Positions 10,288-35,034 of a stretch of DNA of 36,069 bases are shown here, in pieces. Location of the stretch: assembly GCA_026388315.1 (NCBI GenBank), contig JAPLKA010000086.1, positions 1-36,069 of the forward strand. The letters run 5' to 3'. Position numbers and translations under genes: made by a program. The stretch is from Pseudomonadota bacterium (GTDB lineage: Bacteria; Desulfobacterota; Syntrophorhabdia; Syntrophorhabdales; Syntrophorhabdaceae). The notes under the pieces are model-generated. The model did not search any database, was not told where the DNA came from, and worked only from the letters and a program-made list of their open reading frames with translations. Positions within the stretch are counted from its first letter, which is position 1; each line of letters starts with the position of its first letter.

Positions 10288-10402
10288 ATATTCGAAGTTT
10301 CGGAAGCATCTGTTAGTAGCAACCGCAGAAATATCCATTTTTGTTGTCTCTTCGTAACACAGTTCCGTATCCTTCAACATTCTAAAAAGGAGGTATGTCA
10401 AT

Positions 10403-10603
10403 ATGGCAAAAGGAACTGTTAAGTGGTTCAATGAGTCAAAGGGTTTTGGTTTCATTACCAAAGATGACGGCGGAGATGTGTTTGTTCACTATTCAGCCAT
10501 TCAGGACAGTGGTTTTAAATCCCTGTCTGAAGGCGAGGCTGTAAACTTTGATGTTGTAAGCGGCCCGAAAGGTCCGAGCGCAGCAAACGTAGTAAAAGGC
10601 TAA
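10403..10603 (+). CDS. Cold-shock domain protein (CspA family)
   Basis: The 66-residue single-domain protein starts [19 protein letters not shown], containing RNP1 (KGFGFI), and continues [12 protein letters not shown], containing RNP2 (VFVHY). It ends [10 protein letters not shown]. Such proteins bind single-stranded RNA/DNA through a five-stranded OB barrel and act as RNA chaperones. The ribosome site AAAAAGGAGG is strong, though about 9-10 bases from the ATG. It has its own promoter candidate and a terminator-like hairpin, so it is probably monocistronic. Confidence 0.96.
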
Positions 10604-10610
10604 GACCATA

Positions 10611-10645
10611 AAGCAGGTTCAGATCATCTGGACCTGCTTCCTTAA
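10611..10645 (+). terminator. Terminator-like hairpin after cold-shock gene
   Basis: AAGCAGGTTCAG (10611-10622) pairs with CTGGACCTGCTT (10628-10639), a 12-bp stem with one G-U pair. The downstream T-run is poor (TCCTT). Confidence 0.6.
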
Positions 10646-21204: not shown

Positions 21205-21239
21205 TTTCACGTTTCACCTTTGCTATGAGCTATATACTT
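21205..21239. repeat. Heptamer-period tract before fabI
   Basis: Five consecutive 7-base units can be read: TTTCACG, TTTCACC, TTTGCTA, TGAGCTA, TATACTT. It runs into the fabI promoter. Confidence 0.55.
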
Positions 21240-21298: not shown

Positions 21299-22123
21299 AT
21301 GAAAAAGAAACATCATAAGAAAAACAGGGATTTTGATCTTATCACCGGAAAACAGATAAACAAATTCCTGAAGGGCAAAAAAGGATTAATACTCGGTATA
21401 GCTAACGACAAAAGCATCGCATACGGATGTGCCAAGGTCGTACATGATCTCGGCGCTGAACTGGCGGTGACTTATCTGAACGAAAAGGCCTATCCTTATG
21501 TAGGGCCTCTTGCTGAACAGATGCAATGCCCCATCATCATGCCTTATAACGCTGAAATACCCAGCCAGTTGGAAGCTGTTTTTGAAAAAATATCGCAGAC
21601 ATGGGGAAGGCTTGATTTTGTGCTTCACAGTATTGCTTCAGCTCCAAAAGAAGATTTGCATGCCCGTGTGGTTGATTGTTCAAAAGAGGGTTTTCTGCTG
21701 GCCATGGAAGCTTCATGTTACTCATTGATTCAGACAGTCAGACTCTCTGAGCCTCTTATGGAGGAAGGCGGTTCGATACTTACCATGACCTTTTACGGCT
21801 CAGAGAAGGTGGTTGCAAATTACAACATCATGGGGCCTGTAAAGGCTGCCCTGGAAAGCACCGTCAGATATATGGCAGCGGAGCTTGGTCCAAAAATGAT
21901 CCGGGTTAATTCAATTTCACCCGGGCCCATATTAACAAGGGCTGGTTCAGGTATAGGCCACTTTGACGAACTGATGGAGCATGCCGTTTCCATTGCCCCT
22001 GAGCATCATCTGGTTACAATTGAGGATGTCGGGGCTTTAGCCGCCTTTCTTGTAAGCGACAGGGCACAAAGCATCACAGGAGGCGTCCACTATATTGATG
22101 GTGGATTTCATATTGTAGGGTAA
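21299..22123 (+). CDS. fabI: Enoyl-[acyl-carrier-protein] reductase, FabI type
   Basis: The 274-residue protein is a FabI-type short-chain dehydrogenase. KGLILGIANDKSIAYG is the family's divergent nucleotide-binding start; the catalytic pair is the Tyr of NYNIMGPVK with Lys six residues later, and FYGSEK holds the earlier conserved Tyr. RVNSISPGPILTRAGSGI and GVHYIDGGFHIVG complete the fold. FabI reduces trans-2-enoyl-ACP in the last step of each fatty-acid elongation cycle, using NADH or NADPH. About 24 residues rich in Lys and His (MKKKHHKKNRDF) precede the normal FabI start; the ribosome site AAAAGGGG before this ATG and lack of an internal Met support it as real. It stands alone under its own promoter. 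Confidence 0.93.
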   Translation: MKKKHHKKNRDFDLITGKQINKFLKGKKGLILGIANDKSIAYGCAKVVHDLGAELAVTYLNEKAYPYVGPLAEQMQCPIIMPYNAEIPSQLEAVFEKISQTWGRLDFVLHSIASAPKEDLHARVVDCSKEGFLLAMEASCYSLIQTVRLSEPLMEEGGSILTMTFYGSEKVVANYNIMGPVKAALESTVRYMAAELGPKMIRVNSISPGPILTRAGSGIGHFDELMEHAVSIAPEHHLVTIEDVGALAAFLVSDRAQSITGGVHYIDGGFHIVG

Positions 22124-22145
22124 TAGATCATAGCAATCAAAAACT

Positions 22146-22206
22146 GTTCACGGTTCACAGTTCACGGCAATTGAGTATCCAATAAACAGAATCATGAGCC
22201 ATGAGC
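22146..22206. repeat. Heptamer repeats after fabI
   Basis: GTTCACG-GTTCACA-GTTCACG occupies 22146-22166, and CATGAGC-CATGAGC occupies 22193-22206. Both keep a strict 7-base period with different words. Confidence 0.7.
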
Positions 22207-22218
22207 TGAATTAGCTTC

Positions 22219-23154
22219 TCACACCTGAGGGGGCTTTTTCTTCTCCGGCGCAGGTTCCGGGGCAATCGGTATCCGCAGTTCCACTAAAGCACAGAAAACC
22301 CGCAGCTCATCAAGAAGTGTCACAAGGTCAGGCCTTGTGTATGTTGCGATGCCCATCTCAATGCGTGACTCTACGGATCGTAAGCTGGCAATCTGCTTCG
22401 TCATAGGTAGGGGCTTTGTTTTGCCCGGCTCCGGTTTGGGTTTTTTCCATGCGGTGAGCAATTTCTCAAGTGCGAGATAGGTCACTGGTGCCTTCATGAC
22501 GGCCTCAAAGATCTTATCACGGTCAGGACAATCGAGGTTCGAGGCGAAGAGATACCCCTGGGAAACAGGGAGGTTTCCTGCCCGGATTGCTACCTGAATC
22601 TCAGGAGGATTTTTCAAAAGTGAAACCGTGCGAAACAAGGTAGGATAAGACTTTCCGGAGATTTCAATGATGGTGTTCAATGTGAACACCGCTGCCTCCG
22701 ATAAAGTGTCGGGTTTCCGGTTGTACTTTATTAGGTCACTCATCACTCCATCCACATCATACCCTGTGTCAGGATGTTTCGCCTGAATATATGCCAATAT
22801 TCCTTTGGCTTGGTCCATGGGATTCAAGTCTTCACGTTGCAGGTTTTCTGTCAACTGATAGGCCACTATCTGATCCGCCTCGGTGATCGTATCTAAAACC
22901 CGTACCGGGATCAATGGAAGCACCAGCCTCAGTGCAGCCAGATAACGGCGTTCTCCGCAGAGAAGCAGGTATTTGCCGTCCTTCGGTGTTACAAGGACAG
23001 GCTCCAAGACACCCCGGTCTTTAATGGACTCCATAAGGGCTTTGAAGGAATCACTCTCCGTATCAATCCCTGAACGAATTTGTTCTTCCACAATAATGTC
23101 TTCCAGAGGCAGATACAAAAACTCCTGATTCTCAACTGTTTTCTTTGTTGCCAT
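22219..23154 (-). CDS. Orphan ParB/Spo0J-like protein
   Basis: The 311-residue protein has a ParB N-terminal domain: a start LPLEDIIVEEQIRS, then IKDRGVLEPVLVTP, the CTP-binding LLCGERRYLAAL box and YQLTENLQREDLNPMDQA. A central helix-turn-helix-like region follows (KSYPTLFRTVSLLKNPPEI, AIRAGNLPVSQGYLFA). The last 90 residues contain a Pro/Lys linker and a short helical tail ending in PAPEKKKPPQV. ParB proteins bind parS and slide as CTP-driven clamps. No parA lies beside it and it is outside any ori-like context, so it more likely comes from a plasmid, phage or integrated element, or regulates transcription. The site GAGGGGGAGA precedes the ATG. Confidence 0.85.
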   Translation of the reverse strand: MATKKTVENQEFLYLPLEDIIVEEQIRSGIDTESDSFKALMESIKDRGVLEPVLVTPKDGKYLLLCGERRYLAALRLVLPLIPVRVLDTITEADQIVAYQLTENLQREDLNPMDQAKGILAYIQAKHPDTGYDVDGVMSDLIKYNRKPDTLSEAAVFTLNTIIEISGKSYPTLFRTVSLLKNPPEIQVAIRAGNLPVSQGYLFASNLDCPDRDKIFEAVMKAPVTYLALEKLLTAWKKPKPEPGKTKPLPMTKQIASLRSVESRIEMGIATYTRPDLVTLLDELRVFCALVELRIPIAPEPAPEKKKPPQV

Positions 23155-23181
23155 CTTTCTCCCCCTCTTTTTAATTCAGTG

Positions 23182-23253
23182 GTTCGTACTTCGTCGTTCG
23201 TACTTCGTTAAGAGCCTTTCTCGATGTACTATGTACTATGTACTATATACTGT
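23182..23253. repeat. Heptamer repeats upstream of the ParB-like gene
   Basis: GTTCGTA-CTTCGTC-GTTCGTA-CTTCGTT fills 23182-23209; GTACTAT three times followed by ATACTGT fills 23226-23253. All units are exactly seven bases. Confidence 0.8.
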
Positions 23254-23319
23254 CTTGTAAATCTACCTCGATACTGTTCTTTATTGTAAATAATATTGTA
23301 AATCTGTCAAGTTTTTTTA

Positions 23320-23472
23320 ATGCCTATAGATGGAAAACAAGGGTTTGCTGATACGGTTAACTGTTTCTTCACTGTCGGAAAACAAGGGGAATATATAAAT
23401 TATGATATCTACGACTGGCGAGATGGTAAGAAGGTTGCCGAATATGCCTACGGCAAATTAATTATGAAATGA
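23320..23472 (+). pseudogene. Short ORF, possible gene remnant
   Basis: An ATG at 23320 opens 50 codons to TGA at 23470. The C-terminal part (YDIYDWRDGKKVAEYAYGKL) looks protein-like, with alternating aromatic and charged residues as in beta-repeat envelope proteins. No ribosome site is seen. It may be the end of a deleted gene. Around it, the 657-base gap between the two minus-strand genes otherwise holds only repeats and a terminator. Confidence 0.3.
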
Positions 23473-23673
23473 AACCCGAACGACAGATGTGGTGTATGCC
23501 TATAAATCCAGTATAGGCTCTTTTCAGCGAATCTGAGGATTACTGATTGAAATATCTAATTTATCAGGGGGGTGAGTCCTTTATAGAGAGTTATTACATC
23601 ACTGTTGCTTCGTGTATCAATACGGACAAGTTCTTCATCTCCTGCAAAGTTGATCCTTCAACTGTGTCACTTG

Positions 23674-23722
23674 TCATGTATCATATTTCGTGTCTCGTAT
23701 CTCGTGAAGCGTATCTCGTTAA
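23674..23722. repeat. Heptamer repeat tract
   Basis: Seven units in strict register: TCATGTA, TCATATT, TCGTGTC, TCGTATC, TCGTGAA, GCGTATC, TCGTTAA. They follow a loose TCrTrtn pattern. Confidence 0.75.
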
Positions 23723-23771
23723 AGATTCTTCTATGAGGCTTTTACATTTCACGAACAGCACTTTACGATTA

Positions 23772-23803
23772 ACAAAAAAACGACCTAAACACATAGGCCG
23801 TTT
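23772..23803 (-). terminator. Terminator of the 136-aa gene
   Basis: On the minus strand AAACGGCCTA pairs with TAGGTCGTTT (one mismatch) over a 6-base loop and is followed by a T-run, 9-40 bases after the stop of the gene at 23812. Confidence 0.75.
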
Positions 23804-23811
23804 GCAGTGCT

Positions 23812-24222
23812 TCAAATAAATATTACTTTTTTTCGATATATCTTTATCATTGCCCTTATCAATTCAGTGTCATCCAGACCTGCTCGCTGAAGGGAAAAGA
23901 GGAGTTCTGCTCCTTTTATGGCAATCTTAACAATTTCCTCAAACTCGCCATTACGTCCGGCATTATAATACTCTTGCCTAAACCGCACTATTTTTGATAA
24001 AGACCGACTAAATCTCTGATTCTCCTTTTTTCTTTCTTCCTGGCAGCTTTCGCAAAAACAATCACCGTGTCTTTGAGCCATCCCTAACAGCTTGGTGATT
24101 CTGCCATAAGGGAATTCTTCTTTTGTTGTCAAAACCCTTAAAGCTTTTACGATATTAACAAAATCCAATGCCTTTTTCCCGTCTGCTTTTATTTCTGGAA
24201 CGATTTGTTCTGGCTCTACCAT
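23812..24222 (-). CDS. Hypothetical protein with CxCxxC motif, 136 aa
   Basis: I do not recognise this protein. It is soluble, charged and mostly helical. Its one striking feature is GDCFCESCQEERKKENQRF at about residues 53-71, with Cys in a CxCxxC arrangement that could bind a metal, followed by a strongly basic helix. The N-terminal part (DFVNIVKALRVLTTKEEFPYGRITKLLGM) suggests a small helical domain that might be DNA-binding. The last third (AGLDDTELIRAMIKIYRKK) is helical. GAGGTGA stands before the ATG and a good terminator follows, so it looks like a live gene. An IS3 fragment lies directly upstream. Confidence 0.7.
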   Translation of the reverse strand: MVEPEQIVPEIKADGKKALDFVNIVKALRVLTTKEEFPYGRITKLLGMAQRHGDCFCESCQEERKKENQRFSRSLSKIVRFRQEYYNAGRNGEFEEIVKIAIKGAELLFSLQRAGLDDTELIRAMIKIYRKKVIFI

Positions 24223-24244
24223 GACTTCACCTCTTGTTTTTTGA

Positions 24245-24418
24245 ATGATTACCCTTTCTGCTCATTGACGTCTTCATGCCGAACTGATTAAGGATCTTTC
24301 CATATTCATGGGAGCAGTACTGGCTTCCCCGGTCTGAGTGATGGATGAGGCCCGGTTCCGGCCTTTTGGCCGATACTGCCCTGAACAGGGACTGCATGAT
24401 AAGGTCTTTTGTTATCTT
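24245..24418 (-). pseudogene. IS3-family transposase (OrfB) fragment
   Basis: Minus-strand reading gives TKDLIMQSLFRAVSAKRPEP, then GLIHHSDRGSQYCSHEYGKI and GMKTSMSRKGN. This is the centre of the IS3 OrfB integrase core, including the second catalytic Asp (HHSDRGSQY). An in-frame stop lies just before it and the similarity ends abruptly after MSRKGN, before the catalytic Glu. It is therefore a dead internal piece; no terminal repeats were found. Confidence 0.85.
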
Positions 24419-24560
24419 TTAAATTTTTCTCTCTGTCTTTTTAGCTTATATTCTCCTGTATAAAGACTCTATTATTGCAGAATAGCCTGACATAAAGGAG
24501 AGGAGGCATCCCTTACGTTTCCCAGCACGAGAAGAGTCTTTTTGGAATGTCCCTCCAGAA

Positions 24561-24739
24561 ACACTCTTAATTGATACTATACTCTGCCGTTGATGTAAAG
24601 GAGCTTTACCGCATCGGACTACCCATGGGCGAGACCCACTCGATGCCCTTCATGCGGAGGGCGAATATGGGGTCACGGTTCTTTGCCCCGGTACTTGGGT
24701 GTTGGGGAGCAATGGAGCAGAAAGTGCAATTAAGAGTGT
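24561..24739. repeat. 179-bp segment bounded by a perfect 13-bp inverted repeat
   Basis: ACACTCTTAATTG (24561-24573) recurs inverted as CAATTAAGAGTGT (24727-24739). The inside holds a plus-strand open frame from 24571 to TAA at 24739-24741 (its ATG at 24625 gives GETHSMPFMRRANMGSRFF and on to QKVQLRV), which I do not recognise. No clear target duplication flanks the ends. It is MITE-like in form, or a remnant of a gene whose end carries the terminator that follows. Confidence 0.55.
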
Positions 24740-24741
24740 AA

Positions 24742-24775
24742 AGGGTAGAGTCTGACGGCTCTACCCTCTTTTGTT
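24742..24775 (+). terminator. Plus-strand intrinsic terminator
   Basis: AGGGTAGAG (24742-24750) pairs with CTCTACCCT (24759-24767) and is followed by CTTTTGTTT. It directly follows the stop of the small frame ending at 24741, suggesting a once-transcribed plus-strand gene. Confidence 0.7.
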
Positions 24776-24880
24776 TCTCGTATCTTCGCAATTACGAATT
24801 GAAAGCAAGTACACTTAACTGTTTGATCAAAAGTATTGATAACAGGAAGGCTTTATGAGGCGATAGATCAAGCTGTTGTA

Positions 24881-25156
24881 TTAAGAAATCTGTAAGTGCA
24901 ATTGCTTCCCGAGTGCTGCTGCAAAACGCTCCAGGGTTGACAGCTTGATATCTTCCGCATGGTTCTCGATTCTTGAAATTGCGGTTTTCCTGGTATTGAG
25001 CTTGAGAGCGAGTTCCTCCTGCGTTAGGCCTGCTGACTCACGGGCATGACGAAGCATTACGCCTATTTTGAACTGTTCATAGCCTCCTTCGTAACCTTCG
25101 GCAAATTCTTTATCTCTCTTTTTTCTCTGATTAATATATTGTTTCAAATCACTCAT
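24881..25156 (-). CDS. higA: HigA-type antitoxin (XRE helix-turn-helix)
   Basis: From ATG 25156 the product is 91 residues. Residues about 30-85 form a Cro/CI-type helix-turn-helix: IGVMLRHARESAGLTQEELA, LKLNTRKTAISRIENH and LSTLERFAAALGKQL. The N-terminal 30 residues (MSDLKQYINQRKKRDKEF) are a charged helix likely used in dimerisation or toxin contact. Antitoxins of this type neutralise the paired RNase and repress the operon. The ATG overlaps the toxin stop in ATGA, so translation is coupled. A longer in-frame reading to 25411 is the toxin gene in another frame and is rejected. The toxin-first order is the HigBA order. Confidence 0.88.
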   Translation of the reverse strand: MSDLKQYINQRKKRDKEFAEGYEGGYEQFKIGVMLRHARESAGLTQEELALKLNTRKTAISRIENHAEDIKLSTLERFAAALGKQLHLQIS

Positions 25157-25509
25157 GGTTTCATCCTCCTCTTTAGGAAATCTTTCCTGTAGCCCTGTGC
25201 CTTTTCTATCTCCTGTTTTGGTGTTTTCTGACTTTTCTTTACCAGCCCATGCGTCAGGACAACTACAGAGTTGCCTATAAAGAAACAGAATATACGATAT
25301 GTGTTTGAACCGGATTGAATCCTGCACTCCCATATCTCTTCTGTGCCGACAAGTTTTTTGAAATATGAAGAAGGGACAATAACCAAGTCCTCCAACAGAT
25401 TCAAAACCCATGTTACTTTCTGTGCAGCTTTTACCGGTAATGAATCAAGAAACTCCTTTATCGGGCAGTTTCCACTAACCGTCGTATAGAACGTAACAAA
25501 TCTTCTCAC
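25153..25509 (-). CDS. higB: HigB/Gp49-type RelE-superfamily toxin
   Basis: The 118-residue product starts RRFVTFYTTVSGNCPIKEFL and continues LPVKAAQKVTWVLNLLEDL, the hallmark of the phage-derived Gp49-like/HigB family. EIWECRIQSGSNTYRIFCFF and VVVLTHGLVKKSQKTPKQEIEKA complete the RelE-like fold; the Arg in ECRI and RIFCFF and the final Lys-rich helix fit the mRNA-cleaving surface. Family members cut mRNA in the ribosome when freed from HigA. Translation starts at GTG 25509 with no ribosome site, and the promoter places the transcript start at or next to this GTG. Confidence 0.88.
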   Translation of the reverse strand: MRRFVTFYTTVSGNCPIKEFLDSLPVKAAQKVTWVLNLLEDLVIVPSSYFKKLVGTEEIWECRIQSGSNTYRIFCFFIGNSVVVLTHGLVKKSQKTPKQEIEKAQGYRKDFLKRRMKP

Positions 25510-25515
25510 TGAATA

Positions 25516-25544
25516 ATGTTAACCTGGATGTTAACCTTTGTCAA
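25516..25544 (-). promoter_or_regulatory. higBA promoter with embedded direct-repeat operator
   Basis: On the minus strand TTGACA (complement of 25539-25544), a 17-base spacer and TAACAT (complement of 25516-25521) form a promoter. ATGTTAACC occurs at 25516-25524 and 25528-25536, a 12-base period, each with a GTTAAC core. The repeats cover the -10 and spacer, as expected for an autorepressed antitoxin operon. Confidence 0.65.
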
Positions 25545-25644
25545 GTAAGTTTTTCATATACAATGCAACGTCGATGGTGATTTTATGAGAATTACCGGTT
25601 GAAAGAAACAGTACGGTACTTAGGTTGCGAGTACAAGATTACAG

Positions 25645-26094
25645 TCAGCTATATTTAATTTCTCCTTCAACAAAACATGTCTTGCGGCTCAGCATTGCAA
25701 ACATGACGCGAATGAGCTTATGAGCTGTGGCATGGACCGCCTTTTTATAGGGCAACCCCTCTTTCCTCCTTTTATAGCAATAGGTTCTGAAGAGGTCGTT
25801 GTTGATGATAACTTTGGTCGCCATAAGCCAGATCATCCTTCTTAAGTGTCGATTCCCTCGCTTACTTATCCTGCTTTTTCCCACATATTCGCCTGTTTGA
25901 TAGGTTGAAGGGTCAAGCCCGGATGCAGCGATCAGTTTCTTGTCGTTTTGATAAATCTCTACTGCCCCTCCCATCTCAATAAGGAAGTTTACTGCGGTGT
26001 TTTCTCCTATTCCCTTCATAGAGCAGAGTATCTCCATGTCCTGCTTCATCCTTTCACTTAAGGGGCTCATGAGCACCTTTGTGGTCTCTTTCAC
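25645..26094 (-). pseudogene. IS110/IS116/IS902-family transposase, C-terminal remnant
   Basis: The 149-residue open frame is the Tnp_20-type C-terminal half: MKGIGENTAVNFLIEMGG, then LIAASGLDPSTYQTGEYVGK, ISKRGNRHLRRMIWLMATKV and a basic end (RRKEGLPYKKAVHATAHKLI). The N-terminal DEDD nuclease half, present in full-length transposases of about 330-400 residues, is absent; its place is taken by a heptamer-period tract and the neighbouring synthetase gene. It is therefore a truncated IS110-type remnant. Terminal sequences were not found. Confidence 0.85.
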
Positions 26095-26109
26095 CTTTTA
26101 CCTTTTACT
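26089..26109. repeat. Heptamer repeat at the truncation edge of the IS110 remnant
   Basis: TTTCACC-TTTTACC-TTTTACT fills 26089-26109, directly where the transposase frame is cut and at the 3' end of the beta-subunit gene. Confidence 0.6.
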
Positions 26110-28212: not shown

Positions 28213-28240
28213 GTTTTTTGCAGTGAGTTTTTTGCAGTGA
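28213..28240. repeat. Perfect 14-bp tandem duplication
   Basis: GTTTTTTGCAGTGA occurs twice in a row (28213-28226, 28227-28240). Fourteen is twice seven, so it may belong with the heptamer tracts. Confidence 0.8.
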
Positions 28241-31789: not shown

Positions 31790-32938
31790 ATGTTCAACAG
31801 TGCACAATTGATTGAACCCGTGAACATGATTGTTCTTACCGGAGGACCATGTTCAGGCAAAAGTTCTTCACTCGCATATCTTACAGAAAAATTATCTGAC
31901 CACGGCTTTATGGTCTTCGTCATACCGGAAACGGCCACCCTGATAACAAATAACGGCATTGATCGACGCAAGATGGATAAACAAAAACAGGTGGTCATGT
32001 TTGAAGAGACTATTTTCGACATGCAGCTCGCCTTTGAGGAAACCTATAAAAAGGCAGTCACAAGGATCTTCCCTGAGAGGAAAAAGGTAATTCTCCTCGA
32101 CAGGGGCATTATGGATGTAAAGGCATTTATAGCTCATGATGATTTCAGGGCCATCCTTAAAAGAAAAGGATTGAATGAAGTGAGCCTTCGCGACAGGTAT
32201 AACGGAGTTATCCATCTTGTTACTGCAGCCGAAGGGGCCATAGAATTTTATACTGGAGACAACAATACTGCACGGCTTGAAACTCCTGAGGAAGCGCTTC
32301 GCTTTGATCACGGAATACGGGAAAGCTGGCTTGGTCATCCACATTTTAAAATAATCGATAACAGGACCGATTTTGAAGGCAAGATCAAAAGGACTTTTGC
32401 AGCAATTTCACAATTTCTCAACATCCCTGTGCCGCTTGAGAGAAAGGAAAAATTTTTAATTAAAAACATTGATTGCAGAAAACTCCCCGTCCATCAGACA
32501 ATACAGGTTGACGAAATCTATCTTCGCTCAAAAAACCGGAACGAAGAAGTCAGGATCAGGAAAAGAGGGCAGGACGGCGCATATCTTTATTTCCTTACCA
32601 GAAAAAAAGCTATCAAAAACCAGGATAACTATATTGAAGAAGAAGAGCTCATAACGGAACAGGAATTCCATACCCTGAAAAATCTGATTGACCCGAAAAC
32701 GGTAACGATAGAGAAGGAACATATCTGTTTTTTATGGAATAATCAGTATTTTGAACTGGACATACATAAAGGGGCAAATGAAGGCCTTGCAATACTTGAA
32801 GTTGAACAGTTTGAGGCATACGACGCAAAAGAAACGATACACATACCCCCATTTATCTCCATTGAGAAAAAAATTACCGGTGATTTGCAGTACAGTACAA
32901 GGAACATGGCGGCAAAACATCGAAAGTTTCAGGTTTGA
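31790..32938 (+). CDS. AAA_28-type P-loop NTPase fused to a CYTH (triphosphate tunnel) domain
   Basis: The 382-residue protein starts with a Walker A motif LTGGPCSGKSSSLAYL at about 16-31 and a Walker B-like strand KKVILLDRGIMDVKAF at about 100, the pattern of AAA_28/NadR-like kinases. Residues about 215-370 form a CYTH-like beta-tunnel: KEKFLIKNIDC, VDEIYLRSKNRNEEVRIRKR, AYLYFLTRKKAI, EEEELITEQEF and ILEVEQFEAYD. CYTH enzymes use a tunnel of Glu, Lys and Arg to act on triphosphates such as tripolyphosphate, thiamine triphosphate or ATP; the ExExK motif is altered (ERKEK). The fusion implies a nucleotide- or vitamin-related kinase/phosphatase. It ends 35 bases before the flavocytochrome gene. 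Confidence 0.85.
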   Translation: MFNSAQLIEPVNMIVLTGGPCSGKSSSLAYLTEKLSDHGFMVFVIPETATLITNNGIDRRKMDKQKQVVMFEETIFDMQLAFEETYKKAVTRIFPERKKVILLDRGIMDVKAFIAHDDFRAILKRKGLNEVSLRDRYNGVIHLVTAAEGAIEFYTGDNNTARLETPEEALRFDHGIRESWLGHPHFKIIDNRTDFEGKIKRTFAAISQFLNIPVPLERKEKFLIKNIDCRKLPVHQTIQVDEIYLRSKNRNEEVRIRKRGQDGAYLYFLTRKKAIKNQDNYIEEEELITEQEFHTLKNLIDPKTVTIEKEHICFLWNNQYFELDIHKGANEGLAILEVEQFEAYDAKETIHIPPFISIEKKITGDLQYSTRNMAAKHRKFQV

Positions 32939-32973
32939 GAGGGAACTGTAGAAAAAAATTGAGGAGGCAAACA

Positions 32974-34797
32974 ATGGGCAGCTGGAGTCCCAAACAAAAG
33001 GTTGCAATTTTATTGGTATTCCTTGGAGCATTAGCCATCCTGACAACGGCATACACAGTTTCCCAGGCGCAACCTGCGCGGCAGGATGCTCTTCAGTCAC
33101 AGAAGACAGCTGTAATCTCGGGTGCCGGAAGTCTTGCAGATATCCATAAGGCTAAAACCGTTGATTGTGCGGCCTGCCATGGCAAAACCATGGAGGTAGA
33201 CGATAACGAAACTGCCGCCAATGCCCAGTGCATAGGGTGTCATGGCCCTCTCGCTGAAATTACCAAAAAGGGTCAGGGCCATATTAATCCTCATAAGGCC
33301 CATATCGGACAAGTAAGTTGCACCGTATGTCATCACGGGCATACAGCTTCGCGGTCTTACTGCCTGGGCTGCCACGCCTTTAACATGCCAATCCCCGGAA
33401 GTGGCGGGCCTGTGCCCGCGAAAAAGGATCTGGTGAAAACAGACCGGAAAATGGACTCTACTGACATCTTAATCGTCGGCGCAGGCGCTGCCGGTTTCAC
33501 TGCAGCAATCACCGCCCACGACGCTGGTACGAAGGTTATCATCCTCGAGAAACAGCCAATCACTGGCGGCAACAGTATGCTTGCGGCGGGCGGTATGAAC
33601 GCTGCCAACACCCGGATGCAGGCGATAAAAGGCATCAAAGACAGTCCTGAGCTCATGTTCAAAGATACAATGACCGGCGGCAAAAACGTCAACGACCCTG
33701 CGTTGGTGAAGATACTTGCAGATAAGTCATCCGAGTCGGTTGACTGGTTGACGTCTATCGGCGCCGATGTGAGTGATGTTGGTCGGCTGGCCGGGGCGAG
33801 TGTGAACAGGGCTCACCGTCCCACAGGCGGTGCAGCAGTGGGCGCTCACCTTATCGATGTGCTTCGTAAGAATGTCACTGACCGTAAGATCGATGTACGG
33901 GTAAACAGTACGGTTGTACAGGTCCTGCGGAATAAGGACGGACGCGTTACGGGCGTACAGGTAAAGGGCAAACACCGTGGCCTGTATGTTATCGAGGCCA
34001 AAGCGGTTATTATCGCCTCAGGCGGTTTTTCCACCAATGCTGCTATGGTCGAATCTTATCGGCCGGAATATAAAGGCATGACGACCTCGAATCAGCCGGG
34101 TGCCACCGGTGACGGTATGAGGTTTGGTGAAACAGCCAGTGGAAAGCTTATAGATATGAAGGAAATACAGATACATCCCACCGTTGCGGCAGGAAGCAGA
34201 ATACTCATCACCGAGGCAGTGCGCGGTAATGGAGCAATCCTCGTGAACAAAGAAGGCAAACGGTTTGTTAATGAGCTGACGACCCGCGATGCTGCATCGG
34301 CGGCCATGCTCCAACAGCAGGGCAAGATGGCTTACCTGATCATTGACGAAGGTATCCGGAAAAGTCTCAGGCAGATCGAAGGCTACTTCTATCTCGAACT
34401 CGTAAAGGGAGGCGCCACACTCAAAGAGCTTGCCGCAGCTATTGGTGTTCCTGCAGATGCCCTCGAGGCAACAGTTGCAAAGTACAACACGGCTTTTGAA
34501 ACGAAGAACGATGCTGAATTCAAGCGGTCAGACATGCCCCGCCCCATCAAGACTCCGAAGTTTTACGCTATTGGGGTGCAACCGGGCATTCATTACACAA
34601 TGGGTGGGCTCAAAATCGATAACCAGACCCGGGTAATTGATAAAGACGGCAAACCCATTTCGGGTCTCTACGCAGCCGGTGAAGTCACAGGTGGCATTCA
34701 TGGGGCAAATCGTCTTGGCGGCAACTCCATCTCAGAGACGATTACTTTCGGACGGATAGCCGGTGCAAGTGCAGGAAAGGCTGTGCTGAACAAGTAG
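32974..34797 (+). CDS. Periplasmic tetraheme flavocytochrome c (fumarate reductase-like)
   Basis: From ATG 32974 (GAGGAGG before it) the product is 607 residues. An N-terminal signal segment (VAILLVFLGALAILTTAYT) leads to an export site near QAQPA. Four heme motifs follow: CAACH (65-69), CIGCH (86-90), CTVCH (116-120) and CLGCH (130-134). The flavin part begins ILIVGAGAAGFTAAITAHD and has KRFVNELTTRD (with the Arg that acts as proton donor), IQIHPT, GIHYTMGG and the Arg of GGIHGANRLGGN. This matches Shewanella flavocytochrome c3, a soluble periplasmic fumarate (or urocanate-type) reductase taking electrons from quinol-linked cytochromes. The substrate cannot be fixed between fumarate and other enoates. 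An in-frame longer start would destroy the signal peptide. Confidence 0.94.
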   Translation: MGSWSPKQKVAILLVFLGALAILTTAYTVSQAQPARQDALQSQKTAVISGAGSLADIHKAKTVDCAACHGKTMEVDDNETAANAQCIGCHGPLAEITKKGQGHINPHKAHIGQVSCTVCHHGHTASRSYCLGCHAFNMPIPGSGGPVPAKKDLVKTDRKMDSTDILIVGAGAAGFTAAITAHDAGTKVIILEKQPITGGNSMLAAGGMNAANTRMQAIKGIKDSPELMFKDTMTGGKNVNDPALVKILADKSSESVDWLTSIGADVSDVGRLAGASVNRAHRPTGGAAVGAHLIDVLRKNVTDRKIDVRVNSTVVQVLRNKDGRVTGVQVKGKHRGLYVIEAKAVIIASGGFSTNAAMVESYRPEYKGMTTSNQPGATGDGMRFGETASGKLIDMKEIQIHPTVAAGSRILITEAVRGNGAILVNKEGKRFVNELTTRDAASAAMLQQQGKMAYLIIDEGIRKSLRQIEGYFYLELVKGGATLKELAAAIGVPADALEATVAKYNTAFETKNDAEFKRSDMPRPIKTPKFYAIGVQPGIHYTMGGLKIDNQTRVIDKDGKPISGLYAAGEVTGGIHGANRLGGNSISETITFGRIAGASAGKAVLNK

Positions 34798-34803
34798 CCA
34801 GGA

Positions 34804-34836
34804 AGCCAGGAGGAGCCCTTCATCCGCCTCCTGGCT
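34804..34836 (+). terminator. Strong hairpin after flavocytochrome gene
   Basis: AGCCAGGAGG (34804-34813) pairs perfectly with CCTCCTGGCT (34827-34836). No T-run follows, so it may stop transcription only weakly or protect the 3' end. Confidence 0.6.
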
Positions 34837-34913
34837 GACGCTAATCAAGGGCTCCATTTTGCTGCCATCTTTTCCGTCTTCACGATTGTAAAGATGATCT
34901 TAAGCCCCTGGAA

Positions 34914-34980
34914 GGAGCGGAGAGCGTGGAACGTAGAGTGATTTTGGTTGGGTTTTTTCAACTCAAAACTCAACACTGCT
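34914..34980. repeat. Heptamer-period tract before the DRTGG gene
   Basis: GGAGCGG-AGAGCGT-GGAACGT-AGAGTGA covers 34914-34941, and AACTCAA-AACTCAA-CACTGCT covers 34960-34980. Confidence 0.6.
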
Positions 34981-35034
34981 TATAAAACTTGGCTTGGTCC
35001 GACCCCAATCACTAAGCGCTTATGCAATTTAGGG

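Follow-up and report, generated by a model that had tools for sequence, protein, structure and literature searches.

Reports of heptanucleotide repeats in scattered bacteria go back decades, and to our knowledge the number seven in these repeats is still without an explanation. The described systems differ in what was made of them. In Beggiatoaceae a single word, TAACTGA, occurs mostly just upstream of start codons and in one orientation (PMC4679880), and Geobacter metallireducens contains heptanucleotide and octanucleotide multicopy families, mostly in sets of four units, that were read as regulator sites (PMC2700814). In the Nostoc trnL intron, one class of 7-nt repeats in the P6b stem has replaced another several times independently (PMC4476775). 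Polymerase slippage was proposed for long simple sequence repeats (LSSRs) by Mrazek (2007, as cited in PMC4679880 and PMC4692102), with 7 nt taken as the polymerase contact length. The tracts analyzed here are of an already known kind, the heptanucleotide simple-sequence repeats that include the cyanobacterial STRRs, the Beggiatoaceae TAACTGA sets, the GGGNATC repeats of Xanthomonas and Nostoc and the Geobacter families. A first reading of the sequence had likened them to the STRRs of filamentous cyanobacteria, and they do belong with such repeats, the likeness being one of form only.

The window, by which we mean the whole stretch of DNA analyzed, is the 36,069-bp contig C86, one of the 131 that make up a 3.80-Mb assembly. 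Statistics refer to a host-genome sample of 1.29 Mb collected by region from the same assembly, about one third of the genome, and the period-by-period tract counts are based on the 154 kb of intergenic DNA that it contains. A sister species (G002), which is ~95% identical to the host in aligned genes, was covered over about one fifth of its genome; a second batch of G002 sequence was picked for TTCACTA arrays and was left out of the vocabulary test. Tract counts were compared with 20 dinucleotide-preserving shuffles, the position statistics rely on gene calls from a crude longest-ORF mask, and absences of genes or domains refer to profile searches on draft assemblies.

Period 7 dominates the intergenic DNA of the host. 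The self-match of the sequence reaches 0.290 at lag 7, whereas lags 6 and 8 give 0.270 and 0.273; harmonics follow at 14 and 21. Coding DNA in the host sample has no excess at lag 7. We found 115 period-7 tracts in the 154 kb where the shuffles yielded 0.8 (sd 0.7), and the counts at other periods are 0 at period 6, 23 at 8 and 18 at 9. Period 7 thus stands above both neighboring periods and above the shuffled control, which is the comparison on which the original prediction had staked its case. The sharpness of the threshold is best seen in exact two-copy repeats, for which the ratio of observed to expected counts is 1.0 at period 4, 1.0 at 5, 0.7 at 6, 16.7 at 7, 9.4 at 8 and 6.0 at 9. Even at equal pairing length, steps 1–6 have no excess in the host sample: runs of at least 9 matched positions number 0–1 at each of these steps, compared with 101 at step 7 (0.9 expected) and 20 at step 8 (0.6 expected), so that the threshold is not a matter of pairing length. 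G002 shows a spectrum of the same shape, and so do loci of other phyla that had been selected because they hold a heptamer array. An excess found only at steps of 7 and longer, together with changes by whole units, strongly indicates a process that writes tandem 7-mers, as had been proposed.

Eleven tracts had been described in the window as keeping a strict heptamer register, and a clear lag-7 match is present in nine of them. The tract at 2668–2699 (CAGCTAT/TAGCAGT/CAGCTTT; lag-7 match 18/25, TRF period 7) lies between genes for cytochrome c assembly and for glutamyl-tRNA reductase, both assigned by Pfam, and a short tract akin to it lies at the start of the next gene (2719–2737; 8/12); read from the sequence, the two are roughly inverted copies that could pair. 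Upstream of an enoyl-ACP-reductase-like gene (21299–22123, Pfam) the tract at 21205–21239 runs through TTTCACG, TTTCACC, TTTGCTA and TGAGCTA (17/28), and downstream of the same gene there are three units of GTTCACG at 22146–22166 (12/14) and two of CATGAGC at 22193–22206 (7/7). The leader of a ParB-like gene (22222–23154, minus strand; ParB_N and HTH_ParB by Pfam) carries two copies of GTTCGTACTTCGTC at 23182–23209, in which heptamers form a sub-register (15/21; TRF period 7/14) and the self-match at period 14 (0.93) exceeds that at period 7, and a GTACTAT array of four units at 23226–23253 (19/21). An array that morphs from TCATGTA to TCGTATC is found at 23674–23722 (25/42), and TTTCACC TTTTACC TTTTACT make up the tract at 26089–26109 (12/14). 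The register is missing at 28213–28240, which is not a heptamer tract but the perfect 14-bp dimer GTTTTTTGCAGTGA (lag-14 match 1.00, lag-7 6/21), and it is weak at 34914–34980, a composite of GAGCG- and AACTCAA-type words (28/60). "Strict" is also too strong a word for the tracts starting at 21205 and 23674, whose word changes from one end to the other. Elsewhere in the window, positions 10291–10641 match the cspA thermoregulator in Rfam (RF01766; 79.8 bits, gathering score 78).

The tracts were said to fit neither CRISPR nor an insertion sequence, and we agree on both counts. They are contiguous 7-bp units without spacers, in contrast to CRISPR repeats of 24–40 bp with unique spacers, and they vary in word and flank and are not set by a transposase gene with terminal repeats; among the window genes examined, an IS110-family ORF at 25648–26094 (Pfam) is the sole transposase. 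What was found agrees with the class of heptanucleotide LSSRs, namely tandem 7-nt units beyond chance, change of copy number by whole units and a mainly non-coding location.

The unit-wise change is best documented in the leader of the ParB-like gene. The block at 23160–23328 has five close copies elsewhere in the host genome, and these copies immediately precede the start codons of further copies of the ParB-like gene. When the six paralogous leaders are aligned, the tract at 23182–23209 is identical in all of them, and the tract at 23226–23253 has four units in the window and in C120, three in C25a, C90 and C88, and two in C25b; the array copies differ by exactly 7 or 14 bp in otherwise near-identical sequence. 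Leader copies with two, three and four units are therefore direct evidence of unit-wise change and of dispersal as a gene cassette. The ParB-like family has 48 matches in the host, 43 in G002, 46 in G016, 41 in G005 and 6 in G010, three other genomes have 3, 1 and 1, and the remaining 31 of the 39 family genomes have 0 and hold 0–2 TTCACTA matches. Ranked by copies of the ParB-like gene, the top five genomes are exactly those that hold at least five TTCACTA matches. Of 21 ParB-like copies or fragments in the host sample, 15 have a tract no more than 300 bp away, compared with 3.8 expected (maximum 9 in 200 draws). Because only 23 of the 169 tracts in the sample are near such a copy, the family does not account for most arrays. 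The amplification of the ParB-like gene is unusual; many copies are truncated, and several of these start at the internal ATG of codon 113.

The words themselves are many and unevenly used. The 169 tracts of the host sample comprise 73 distinct words, the commonest of which are AATAGTG, ACATCGT, AAAGGTG and AAAACTC, and no word was seen twice in the shuffled controls. The claim of a different word at each site is right insofar as there are many words, but the AATAGTG family (TTCACTA on the other strand) alone accounts for 45 of the 169 tracts (33 of the 115 intergenic ones), and many tracts lie in dispersed blocks: a flank of at least 20 bp is common with another locus for 57% of tracts compared with 36% of random intergenic points. 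The host has 42 exact matches to TTCACTATTCACTATTCAC and G002 has 31, where overlapping hits in a single array each count, and among the 39 family genomes most other genera have few or none; the mirror word, with a dinucleotide set identical to that of TTCACTA, occurs in 0 of the 39. Among 395 genomes of the phylum, the main word is present in 10 outside the family and the mirror word in 0, and in viral stretches the numbers are 18 and 4, respectively. Over other words made of the letters of TTCACTA the preference is weaker than over the mirror (TTACTCA in 10 stretches compared with 18, TTCCATA in 0). A 26-bp TTCACTA array occurs in at least 118 stretches from Acidobacteria, Alphaproteobacteria, Campylobacterota, Bacteroidetes, Cyanobacteria, Firmicutes and others. 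A mobile element carrying TTCACTA between phyla was rejected as an explanation, the flanks being common only to a few loci, and so was a universal cross-phylum vocabulary, as words far from the seed overlap in 5 types (51 in the genus, 62 foreign), which is near chance. Word vocabularies are species-specific; the AAGACAG family, for example, supplies 9 of the 52 tracts in the unselected G002 sample and none of the 169 host tracts (p=1e-6).

Comparison of orthologous sites shows how fast the words turn over. For the 59 tracts anchored on both sides, the other species has the same word in 20 cases and a different one in 17, and in 22 cases it has no tract. These numbers count tracts, not sites: tracts from one region depend on each other, and some sites enter from both sides. 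At random intergenic points, the other species has a tract in 5 of 53 cases. The same-word orthologous pairs L313/L046 and L124/L035 are one 7-bp unit apart, plus substitutions. The cleanest word swap is located in carA, which encodes the small subunit of carbamoyl-phosphate synthase (P0001; L031:4738–5940 and L135:4322–5512) and contains an in-frame hairpin and heptamer array between two domains. The host array consists of four AACCCTG-type units and the G002 array of four GTTGCGC-type units, with nearly identical flanks and adjacent hairpin and with the reading frame kept in both species; the linker in six family members is only a few residues long, with little or no insertion, as judged from match coordinates. 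The site at the enoyl-ACP-reductase-like gene (L119) likewise has GTTCACG and CATGAGC in the host and AGCTATC, TTCTTAA and AGCTCAT tracts in G002, and CATGAGC is also repeated in G002 at the place orthologous to 22193–22206.

Larger differences between the two species also involve these sites. A ~4-kb host segment (window 22134–26109) is missing in G002 L119, with heptamer tracts at its edges and synteny resuming at 26109; the array at 23674–23722 is within this segment and the tract at 26089–26109 is at its far edge. The segment contains the ParB-like gene, a Gp49-like/HTH pair (toxin-antitoxin-like) and the IS110-family transposase ORF, and the corresponding G002 site has arrays and no ParB gene. 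A further ~2.2 kb (window 32811–35013), which encodes a protein of 620 aa with both cytochrome c3 and FAD-binding domains, is largely missing from G002, and the composite at 34914–34980 lies near its edge. Presence/absence blocks of 30–600 bp between host and G002 are common and some are hairpin-like. One of them is a 74-bp hairpin-like block with heptamer arms (L106:9950–10010), missing in G002 (L317:4778), that has GGATT on both sides in the manner of a target-site duplication.

With respect to genes, the density of tracts is 0.28 and 0.40 per kb between divergent genes and 0.81–1.27 per kb elsewhere, and this depletion fits expectation if promoters are spared. By the crude ORF mask, 79 of 109 tracts are clearly intergenic. 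Tracts are nearer to the upstream stop in 78 cases and to the downstream start in 43, and the main word has no consistent orientation to genes (19/36). Hairpin arms as a general design were rejected, with inverted partners within 150 bp found for 13% compared with 7% for other words. Tracts of period 8 and 9 (for example, AACCGGCG and CCCTTGAA) and palindromic blocks (GCAGGCTTTAGCCTGC) recur beside heptamers in the intergenic DNA of host and G002.

We consider it probable that the tracts are neutral heptanucleotide arrays that arise when slippage-like events duplicate at least 7 nt in tandem and that then spread in dispersed cassettes. This reading starts from the step spectrum, the unit-wise changes, the dispersal of leader copies and the turnover of words between species that we observed. 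Misalignment in replication or repair would produce tandem duplications with a hard lower limit of 7 nt, steps of 7 being far more frequent than 8 and 9 and nothing being found at 1–6; the arrays would next gain or lose whole units; and some would be carried to other places in the genome as part of dispersed repeat blocks or gene leaders, of which the ParB-like leader is the example here. Each species would in this way build up a favorite vocabulary of its own, and orthologous sites would turn over fast. The misalignment may be polymerase slippage or templated repair, and most arrays are presumably without function; we found support for none. Of the two mechanisms originally offered, slippage with a fixed step and an unknown enzyme, the latter is not required, and plain slippage fails on the sharp step and on the switching of words.

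Mismatch repair does not set the 7-nt step. Searches of ten family genomes, with positive controls, found neither the MutS_I domain nor a MutL above the curated cut-off, and the one MutS_V match in each of these genomes, in a frame of ~770 aa, fits MutS2; judging from these profiles, Syntrophorhabdaceae appears to lack canonical mismatch repair. Filtering of short steps by mismatch repair was rejected on this ground. Ku end joining was rejected as a driver, Ku being missing from array-rich genomes, as were Y1 transposases, whose counts array richness does not follow. The same comparison speaks against REP/RAYT elements: G005 has 0 Y1_Tnp matches with 11 TTCACTA matches, and G019 has 7 with 0.

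Several observations sit badly with neutral slippage and lend weight to other explanations. A model based on pairing length predicts expansion of short steps at equal pairing, and none is seen in spite of the lack of recognizable MutS1 and MutL; different words of similar length at one site, as in carA, are not predicted by slippage alone. Both a threshold independent of pairing length or word and the replacement of words in place would be covered if opposite-strand nicks ~7 nt apart, made by a transposase, topoisomerase or nuclease, were filled and ligated to give a duplication of fixed step and any word, with repeated events building arrays and replacing words at fragile sites. At least one presence/absence block, the 74-bp insert in L106/L317, has the short flanking direct repeat that fits such breaks. 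The proposal is nonetheless unlikely: it needs a hypothetical enzyme, the array-rich genomes are without Ku and their richness does not track Y1 transposases, long near-perfect arrays (for example, L039:1385–1484) resemble slippage growth, and tract sites are anchored between species no less often than random intergenic points. We give even less credence to a dedicated word-independent process with a 7-nt step that acts at fragile intergenic sites, swaps words between species and is tied to the amplified ParB-like family, which has >40 matches per genome and occurs nearly only in the array-rich genomes of the family. An enzyme resembling reverse transcriptase or telomerase that writes 7-mers from an RNA template would yield fixed-length tandem short words, which the tracts resemble in form only; a search of the host genome for the RVT_1 domain found none, each of the dozens of words would call for its own template, and we regard this as barely credible.

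The other difficulty for neutral slippage is the main word, which is too common for independent random seeds given its share of the intergenic tracts and the lack of recurrence in shuffles, and which unlike its mirror is found in those 10 phylum genomes outside the family. A single dominant word that is preferred over its mirror in unrelated genomes and in viral stretches is what binding sites for a DNA- or RNA-binding regulator might produce, as proposed for Beggiatoaceae TAACTGA and the Geobacter metallireducens families. We nevertheless find this rather improbable, since the word is kept in only 20 of the 59 anchored tracts, orientation is inconsistent, stops are closer than starts, more than 70 distinct words occur in 169 tracts and one array lies within the carA coding sequence; a sequence-specific binding site was rejected on the poor conservation of words and the lack of orientation. 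The ParB-like proteins could instead make, bind or need the arrays, which would then be the ends or landing sites of the family. The coincidence of the amplified copies (48, 43, 46, 41 and 6) with exactly the five genomes rich in TTCACTA and the excess of copies near tracts speak for such a role, as does the G002 site that holds arrays without the ParB gene. It is very unlikely all the same, because most tracts are far from a copy, the association is in part that of one common leader, both may merely mark plastic genomes of related genera, and the many words speak against sequence-specific binding.

The frequent difference in word between species at one site speaks for a copying process whose step is at least seven letters, and not for a fixed signal. 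The genus offers a clean test system for such a process: there is a threshold at 7 and nothing at 1–6 in a lineage apparently without MutS1 and MutL, words have turned over at orthologous sites between two close species, and the family includes genera both rich and poor in arrays, whose comparison could name the responsible factor.

Among known systems, the LSSRs with heptanucleotide units, as far as Mrazek (2007) is represented in the papers that cite it, are similar in that 7 is the commonest class, the location is intergenic and the distribution among relatives is patchy. Judged from the same citations, they differ from the present arrays in the dozens of words per genome, the fast turnover of words at orthologous sites and the measured lack of steps 1–6 seen here, and the slippage proposal, in the form in which it is cited, covers a unit of 7 but predicts neither the missing short steps at equal pairing nor word swaps at one site. 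Beggiatoaceae TAACTGA (PMC4679880) also forms short intergenic heptamer sets with one dominant word and a patchy distribution across phyla, whereas the host has many words, no orientation bias and tracts nearer to stops, and TAACTGA is outside the 25 commonest host words listed. The G-quadruplex heptamers GGGNATC of Xanthomonas and Nostoc (PMC4692102) are likewise dispersed, intergenic and avoided between divergent genes; the host words, however, are mostly not G-rich and lack G runs in every unit, and while 83% of the Xanthomonas repeats keep their place between species, the word is kept here in 34% of anchored tracts. As in Geobacter metallireducens (PMC2700814), there are several word families per genome, found between and within genes and with some opposite-strand pairs, but the unit number varies here and the sites turn over. 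The STRRs and the class I/II repeats of the Nostoc trnL P6b stem (PMC4476775) resemble our tracts in three respects: hairpin arms are built of 7-nt words, indels measure 7 nt, and one word class can take the place of another at a given site. That case involves one intron site and two word classes, and the present one many sites and many words that are mostly unpaired as hairpins; by analogy, the Nostoc intron is the direct precedent for the swapping of words described here.
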